Source: an uncultured Woeseiaceae bacterium
GTDB taxonomy: Bacteria; Pseudomonadota; Gammaproteobacteria; Steroidobacterales; Woeseiaceae
DNA: 64,000 nucleotides
Reading direction: 5' to 3'
Assembly: GCA_905182415.1 (NCBI GenBank)
Contig: CAJJBK010000002.1
Span: 124,001 to 188,000 of the forward strand
Shown piece by piece: positions 17,660 through 19,708 of the stretch. The notes beneath the pieces were generated by a model. The model made no database searches and was not told where the DNA came from. It saw nothing but the letters and a program-made list of their open reading frames with translations. The position numbers and the translations under genes are program-made. Position 1 is the stretch's first letter, and every line of letters starts with the position of its first letter.

Positions 17660-18628
17660 GTGACTAACGAACATAATGACATAGATGATAAGCCAAAAAA
17701 CTTTTTTTCAAGGCTAACTAGTGCCTTAAAAGGGAAAAAAGACGTTCTAAAAAATAACTTAGTCAATATTCTAACAACAAATAAAATCAATGAAGATCTA
17801 TTGGAAGAAATTGAAACTGAACTTATCATCGCGGATATTGGGGTTCATACTACCCAAAAAATAATCAATCAATTAAAAGAAAAAAGAAAGAAAAATTCTA
17901 AAAAAAATGAAGATCTAAAGCACAATATTAGAGATATTATGTTATCTATATTGGAGCCAGTAAGCACTCCACTTATTATAAAAAATAATGATGATCCTTT
18001 CGTGATTCTAATGATAGGAGTAAATGGAGCTGGAAAAACAACCTCTATTGGAAAATTATCACGGTACTTTAAAGATCAAAATCATTCAGTAATATTAGCT
18101 GCCGGTGATACATTTCGTGCAGCTGCTATAGAACAACTTCAAGTTTGGGGTCAAAGAAATAAAATTGAAGTAATATCTCAAGAAACTGGCGCTGATCCTG
18201 GTGCCGTAATTTTTGATGCTCATGCATCTGCTAAAGCAAAAAAAATTAATGTACTTCTAGCGGATACCGCAGGTCGTTTGCATACACAAACAGGTCTAAT
18301 GGATGAATTAGTTAAAATAAAAAAAATTCTTAACAAACAATCCGATGCAGCACCGCATGAAGTTATGTTAGTTCTCGATGCCAGCCTTGGTCAAAATGCA
18401 TTAATACAAGCTGAAAAATTCAATGAAGCACTAGGTATAACTGGACTAATTGTCACCAAACTCGATGGCAGTGCCAAGGGTGGAATCGTATTAAGTATCG
18501 CGGATAAACTAAAAATTCCAATCCGTTTTATTGGTATAGGCGAGAAACTTGAGGATATGCAAGTCTTTAATCGTCATGATTACGTCAATGCTTTATTGAA
18601 TCTACCTCAAAATCATCAAAATAATTAA
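17660..18628 (+). CDS. ftsY: Signal recognition particle receptor FtsY
   Basis: A 322-residue SRP-family GTPase that receives SRP-ribosome complexes at the inner membrane. The NG domain is complete: P-loop 'GVNGAGKTTSIGKLSRY', 'AAGDTFRAAAIEQLQVWG', 'LLADTAGRLHTQTGLMDEL' and 'VTKLDGSAKGG'. The acidic A domain is reduced to a short lysine-rich leader (about 35 residues), much shorter than in E. coli (497 residues in total). GTG 17660 is supported by an AGG at 17648-17650. Unlike most gammaproteobacteria, ftsE and ftsX do not follow; rpoH is next. Confidence 0.94.
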   Translation: MTNEHNDIDDKPKNFFSRLTSALKGKKDVLKNNLVNILTTNKINEDLLEEIETELIIADIGVHTTQKIINQLKEKRKKNSKKNEDLKHNIRDIMLSILEPVSTPLIIKNNDDPFVILMIGVNGAGKTTSIGKLSRYFKDQNHSVILAAGDTFRAAAIEQLQVWGQRNKIEVISQETGADPGAVIFDAHASAKAKKINVLLADTAGRLHTQTGLMDELVKIKKILNKQSDAAPHEVMLVLDASLGQNALIQAEKFNEALGITGLIVTKLDGSAKGGIVLSIADKLKIPIRFIGIGEKLEDMQVFNRHDYVNALLNLPQNHQNN

Positions 18629-18780: not shown

Positions 18781-18807
18781 TTAGCACTCAATCTTGCTGA
18801 CTGCTAA
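18781..18807 (+). promoter_or_regulatory. CIRCE-like operator (HrcA site) upstream of rpoH
   Basis: The left arm TTAGCACTC (18781-18789), a 9-nt spacer and the right arm GACTGCTAA (18799-18807) reproduce the CIRCE consensus TTAGCACTC-N9-GAGTGCTAA with one mismatch in the right arm. Spacing is exact. CIRCE is the operator of the heat-shock repressor HrcA. Here it lies 37 nt upstream of the rpoH ATG, so it probably falls in the promoter or early leader. No hrcA gene is in the window, so repression by HrcA is inferred. Confidence 0.75.
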
Positions 18808-18844
18808 AATGTGTATCTTATTGATTAATATAGACATTGAATTT

Positions 18845-19708
18845 ATGGACATAGCTCTACCAAAAGTAAATTATGATTTAATACAGGCAGGCCCTGTTGG
18901 AAGCCTTGATGCTTATATTCAAGGCATAGGTATTATTCCTGTTCTCAGTAAAGAAGCTGAACAAAAACTTGCGCGCAAATATAATAATGAAGAAGATCTT
19001 CAAGCAGCAAGAGAACTAGTAATGGCGCATCTTCGCTTCGTCATCCATATTGCAAAAGGTTATAAAGGCTATGGCCTTCCATTAGAAGATCTAATTCAAG
19101 AAGGTAATGTTGGGCTTATGAAGGCTGTAAAACGCTTTGATCCTGATTTTGGAGTGCGCCTAGTCTCATTTGCCGTACACTGGATTCGAGCTGAAATTCA
19201 TGAGTATGTGCTTCGTAACTGGCGTATCGTGAAAGTCGCTACAACAAAAGCGCAACGTAAATTATTCTTTAATCTTCGTAAGCAAAAAAAGAGTTTGAGC
19301 TGGTTGTCCTCGGAAGAAACCAAAGCCGTAGCAGACGATCTTGGCGTCTCAACAACTGAAGTATCAGAAATGGAAAAACGTCTAAGCTCTCGCGATATGA
19401 CATTTGATCCAACACCTAGCGATAATGATGACAGTAACAACTATAATCCTTCGGCTTATCTACCAAATCCTGATAGTGATCCAGCAACAGCGGTCGAAAA
19501 TGAACAATGGCATAATAATGCTGTCAGTAAAATGCAAGAATCTTTAGCATCGCTCGATAATCGTAGTCAAGATATTCTTCGTAGTCGTTGGTTAGCAGAA
19601 AAGAAAGAAACATTGCATGAATTAGCCGATAGGTATGATGTCTCTGCGGAAAGAATAAGGCAAATTGAAGCCAATGCTATTAAGAAACTTCGTCACTCTA
19701 TGCAATAA
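18845..19708 (+). CDS. rpoH: Heat-shock sigma factor RpoH (sigma-32)
   Basis: A 287-residue group 3 sigma factor directing heat-shock transcription. The RpoH box 'TKAQRKLFFNLRKQKKSL' is present. Region 2 is 'HLRFVIHIAKGYKGYGLPLE' with 'DLIQEGNVGLMKAVKRFDPD', and region 4 ends in 'ETLHELADRYDVSAERIRQI'. ATG 18845 gives the E. coli-like length (284). An in-frame TTG at 18794 lies inside the CIRCE-like element and is rejected. The leader is very AU-rich. A CIRCE-like operator 37 nt upstream suggests HrcA control. Confidence 0.95.
   Translation: MDIALPKVNYDLIQAGPVGSLDAYIQGIGIIPVLSKEAEQKLARKYNNEEDLQAARELVMAHLRFVIHIAKGYKGYGLPLEDLIQEGNVGLMKAVKRFDPDFGVRLVSFAVHWIRAEIHEYVLRNWRIVKVATTKAQRKLFFNLRKQKKSLSWLSSEETKAVADDLGVSTTEVSEMEKRLSSRDMTFDPTPSDNDDSNNYNPSAYLPNPDSDPATAVENEQWHNNAVSKMQESLASLDNRSQDILRSRWLAEKKETLHELADRYDVSAERIRQIEANAIKKLRHSMQ

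Follow-up and report, generated by a model that had tools for sequence, protein, structure and literature searches.

A CIRCE element conserved before rpoH points to probable HrcA control of the sigma-32 gene in a Woeseiaceae genome and across hrcA-bearing Gammaproteobacteria

HrcA/CIRCE and sigma-32 are textbook alternatives, or parallel systems, for the heat shock response, and control of sigma-32 is regarded as mainly post-transcriptional. Why, then, would an HrcA operator stand directly in front of rpoH? The question arose from a 64-kb stretch of DNA (the window) belonging to a 1.82-Mb genome (73 contigs, 99% complete) whose nearest named relatives are Woeseiaceae. The original prediction had described CIRCE-like arms with a 9-nt gap and one mismatch, 37 nt before the rpoH ATG, and each of these features was reproduced. 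The element reads TTAGCACTC-AATCTTGCT-GACTGCTAA (Table 1). Compared with TTAGCACTC-N9-GAGTGCTAA, it carries a single mismatch, G to C at the third base of the right arm; 17 of the 18 arm positions match the CIRCE consensus, the spacing is exactly 9 nt, and 37 nt lie between its end and the ATG at 18845. It is the sole CIRCE match at ≤3 mismatches in the 64 kb, where shuffled sequences predict 0.02. We rejected chance or a coding artefact as its origin. These observations confirm the sequence as a CIRCE element.

Table 1. Features of the ftsY-rpoH region, in window coordinates
Feature	Position	Strand	Remarks
ftsY, directly upstream of rpoH	17660..18628	+	
CIRCE operator, predicted HrcA-binding inverted repeat	18781..18807	+	1 mismatch; kept in relatives
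Left arm, TTAGCACTC	18781..18789	+	first six bases, TTAGCA, double as a -35-like hexamer
Right arm, GACTGCTAA	18799..18807	+	genus-wide variant of GAGTGCTAA
Extended -10, TG-C-TAAAAT, sigma-70 type	18802..18810	+	consensus match; overlaps right arm
Short rpoH 5' leader, predicted	18817..18844	+	start inferred ~7 nt after the -10
rpoH, sigma-32 homologue, 287 aa	18845..19708	+	region-2 motif QRKLFFNLR

Does the genome encode a repressor for this site? A single intact hrcA is present (open frame of 349 aa; PF01628, E = 3.4e-62), located in an hrcA-grpE-dnaK-dnaJ cluster. The original prediction also called for a genome-wide scan for operators: at ≤2 mismatches the whole genome contains exactly two CIRCEs, one before rpoH and the other, TTAGCACTC-N9-GAGTGCCAA, upstream of groES in groESL. 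A third CIRCE-like match, with 3 mismatches, falls inside a helicase-like coding sequence and was taken as chance; the reversed CIRCE pattern had no matches anywhere in the genome. No CIRCE at ≤3 mismatches was found before hrcA, unlike classical control of hrcA-grpE-dnaK-dnaJ. One relative from the order (L370, G042:C107) has a third CIRCE ~370 nt before its hrcA domain match, which indicates that hrcA autoregulation exists in some order members. Sigma-32-like promoters accompany both chaperone operons: CTTGAAA-N13-CCTTAT immediately 5' of the groESL CIRCE and CTTGAAA-N13-CCCCAT at dnaK.

Is the operator maintained in close relatives? CIRCE was present in 57 of 60 genomes of the genus, family and order, mostly exactly two in each, and the listed coordinates repeatedly fell just upstream of rpoH. 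Thirty CIRCE loci were retrieved from these relatives, with rpoH at 20 and groES at 10. The only genome of the 60 that is >90% complete and has no CIRCE (G047) is missing hrcA too. CIRCE stood before rpoH at each of the 80 closest named RpoH loci, from Woeseiaceae, Steroidobacteraceae, Nevskiaceae and other families: 60 were exact, 17 had one mismatch and 3 had two (≤1 in 77/80). The original prediction had named conservation of the arms and their spacing as support, and both are kept across relatives while the spacers diverge. Across 62 Woeseiaceae-like leaders the two arms are essentially invariant, a G-to-C change at position 21 (15%) being the sole frequent variation. A chance origin, or an operator for some other regulator, is favored by nothing beyond the inexactness of the site; the 0.02 matches expected per 64 kb, the 80/80 relatives and the co-occurrence with hrcA described below leave this reading a negligible probability, and chance alone is already refuted.

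Perhaps the operator is a decaying relic in a reduced genome, the G-to-C change having reduced HrcA binding and left rpoH effectively constitutive? One arm is indeed mismatched, and the sigma-E half of the rpoH promoter has already gone from the window's genus (see below). However, all six genus leaders retain both arms and the spacing amid diverged spacers and flanks. The GACTGCTAA variant is fixed in these six sampled members and reappears in distant, unrelated families that carry hrcA, which also rules out a sequencing error. We therefore consider a relic very unlikely.

To see how far the association extends, we took roughly one genome from each gammaproteobacterial family (124 in all) and could read the rpoH leader in 110, calling CIRCE at ≤3 mismatches within 600 nt before rpoH. 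hrcA was found in 87 of the 124. CIRCE preceded rpoH in 71 of 78 hrcA+ genomes and in 7 of 32 hrcA- genomes (Fisher p = 1.7e-12 with families treated as independent; families are not independent samples, and this and the later Fisher values serve as a guide). The reversed pattern, used as a control in the same leaders, never did better than 4 mismatches. Among the seven hrcA- carriers, G152 has a piece of hrcA at the edge of a contig and four come from genomes that are 62-85% complete. The remaining two, G075 (97% complete) and G133 (99%), have rpoH CIRCEs with 1 and 3 mismatches and no detectable hrcA; these are either assembly gaps or orphan operators. Conversely, seven hrcA+ genomes lacked a CIRCE in the 600 nt ahead of rpoH (G090, G171, G130, G179, G084, G095 and G072). 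G090 has two rpoH copies close together. We conclude that, judged by sequence, a CIRCE at rpoH is nearly the norm among Gammaproteobacteria with hrcA and no peculiarity of the window's organism.

The rule could not be extended to Alphaproteobacteria and was rejected there: just 3 of 27 hrcA+ genomes showed a CIRCE in the 600 nt ahead of their best RpoH homologue, and in one of the three it was >400 nt away. Two alphaproteobacterial loci, L345 (G314) and L359 (G189), do have a one-mismatch CIRCE close before the rpoH homologue; hence the wiring also occurs outside Gammaproteobacteria.

What would an operator at this position control? A conserved extended -10, TGCTAAAAT, overlaps the right arm, and an 18-nt spacer separates it from TTAGCA in the left arm. 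The AAT directly after the right arm is conserved in Woeseiaceae-like rpoH leaders and class-wide. It is missing after groESL CIRCEs, and the extended -10 is conserved only in rpoH leaders. The rpoH CIRCE thus overlaps the predicted promoter of a heat shock gene, as classical HrcA operators lie at or over theirs. One locus, L251 (G069), has tandem CIRCE-plus-TAAAAT units before rpoH, TTAGCAGTC-N9-GAGTGCTAAAAT followed by TTAGCACTC-N9-GAGTGCTAAAAT; no RpoE was detected in G069 above the family cut-off.

An inverted repeat might instead work in RNA, as a hairpin on ftsY read-through transcripts that alters rpoH mRNA stability or translation, with HrcA incidental. The gene order permits such transcripts: ftsY and rpoH are co-oriented and 216 nt apart, and a search for a terminator-like site between them found none. 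(In E. coli, by contrast, ftsE and ftsX separate ftsY from rpoH.) However, the predicted transcription start is downstream of the repeat, and the main transcript would then not contain it. In a comparison of secondary structure the leader and early coding region folded no better than shuffles (z = 0.53), and an Rfam search of the leader gave no match; neither result gave a sign of an RNA thermometer. The arms are invariant rather than covarying, and presence of the repeat tracks hrcA across families. On this evidence we regard an RNA hairpin as very unlikely and HrcA repression of the sigma-32 gene as the best reading; that part of the original prediction is supported by the intact hrcA together with the conserved arms and spacing.

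The 62 leaders held two further conserved blocks, a TAA that opens the spacer and a GGAAC that ends ~11 nt before CIRCE. Together they read GGAACTT-N16(17)-TCTAA, the -10 being assembled from the last bases of the left arm plus the spacer; by its consensus match this is a predicted sigma-E promoter. Most RpoE-bearing relatives have GGAACTT-N16-TCTAA either laid over the left arm or a short way 5' of it. If the assignment is right, the element should track rpoE, and we examined this in both the class and the relatives. With the register fixed, the sigma-E -35 occurred in 46 of 65 RpoE+ and 0 of 11 RpoE- families bearing CIRCE (p = 1e-5). Among relatives, the figures were 36/38 with RpoE and 1/10 without (p = 3e-7), the lone RpoE- case being a genome 82% complete. 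When any position within 300 nt 5' of rpoH was allowed, a sigma-E promoter was found in 47/74 RpoE+ families compared with 1/28 RpoE- families, against a rate of 1.5% in shuffled sequence.

How do the two elements lie relative to each other? Forty-three RpoE+ leaders have both, overlapping in 35 and with the promoter just upstream of CIRCE in 8, an arrangement that places the predicted start within or next to the operator. In L363 (G258) and L235 (G146) the sigma-E -10 is found mid-spacer or at the spacer end with the 16-17 nt spacing kept; such a shifted register fits two elements under separate constraint. One of the two is gone from the window's genus: RpoE was not found in nine genomes, and the GGAACTT -35 is absent from six leaders, that of the window included. 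CIRCE and the extended -10 remain there despite these losses.

We propose, as very probable, that this is a functional CIRCE on the rpoH promoter and that HrcA would occlude rpoH and repress groESL in parallel, within a feed-forward loop set by GroE. At normal temperature, HrcA kept folded and active by free GroE would bind the rpoH operator and so stop RNA polymerase at the extended -10 promoter that the operator overlaps. Once GroE is taken up by unfolded proteins, HrcA would become inactive, and rpoH and groESL would be derepressed together. Newly made sigma-32 would then add drive at groESL, which has CIRCE plus a sigma-32 promoter, and at dnaK. Because HrcA would act on groESL both directly and, with the same sign, through rpoH, the loop would be coherent; negative feedback through GroE would close it, and free GroE would set sigma-32 synthesis. 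In most RpoE-bearing relatives, HrcA would cap the rise in rpoH that envelope stress can bring about, whereas in the window's genus rpoE and the sigma-E element are lost and the HrcA branch is kept. Sequence comparison establishes the operator, its conservation and link to hrcA, its overlap with promoter elements, and the link between the sigma-E element and rpoE. That the promoters are active and that HrcA represses them is our inference; HrcA binding and its dependence on GroE are carried over from other bacteria, GroE being known to support HrcA in Caulobacter and Helicobacter (PMC8119881, PMC6032397). The original prediction had wired the two heat shock systems in series. In our reading the series connection through rpoH stands, and the HrcA operator on groESL adds a parallel one.

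The components are familiar from HrcA/CIRCE systems of Bacillus, Caulobacter, Helicobacter and others, which act on groESL and hrcA-grpE-dnaK-dnaJ: the repressor belongs to the same PF01628 family, and the operator sequence and 9-nt spacing are the same. The target differs. Classical systems control chaperone operons, whereas here the predicted target is rpoH, the gene of the rival heat shock regulator. In Geobacter sulfurreducens a CIRCE has been predicted before rpoH, at -51 relative to the translation start (PMC545781, Table 8), i.e., the same operator at the same target gene. Among the deltaproteobacteria of that study it is a single case, given with no promoter analysis (PMC545781), whereas the arrangement described here is found almost throughout the Gammaproteobacteria with hrcA, combined with sigma-E and extended -10 promoters. 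Our literature search for HrcA or CIRCE with rpoH or RpoE, which covered subscription literature in part, returned only the Geobacter prediction, and an earlier description is possible. Within the same partial coverage of subscription papers we found no statement of gammaproteobacterial generality or of operator/sigma-E overlap; HrcA is unmentioned in Leyn et al. 2016.

How does this compare with E. coli? There the sigma-E promoter of rpoH, P3, reads GAACTT-N16-TCTGA, sharing its 16-nt spacing with the element of the relatives, and rpoHP3-lacZ serves as a sigma-E-dependent reporter (PMC2215328). E. coli has neither hrcA nor CIRCE, whereas relatives with HrcA have the operator over or immediately behind a P3-type promoter and the window's genus retains the operator only. 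We somewhat favor the view that the ancestral gammaproteobacterial rpoH promoter was a composite gate, in which an HrcA operator, lying on or directly after a sigma-E promoter, was joined to an extended -10. At such a gate cytoplasmic chaperone capacity, acting by way of HrcA, would veto the envelope-stress input that sigma-E brings to sigma-32 synthesis. E. coli would then be derived, without the HrcA half, and the window's genus its mirror image, without the sigma-E half.

The predicted circuit is simple: a single operator would read GroE capacity and block rpoH transcription from the housekeeping promoter and the sigma-E promoter alike. Lineages in which rpoE was lost and then the sigma-E element alone are natural experiments that separate the two inputs. 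If the reading holds, one heat shock system would gate the other in most hrcA-bearing Gammaproteobacteria, and E. coli would be the exception and not the model.
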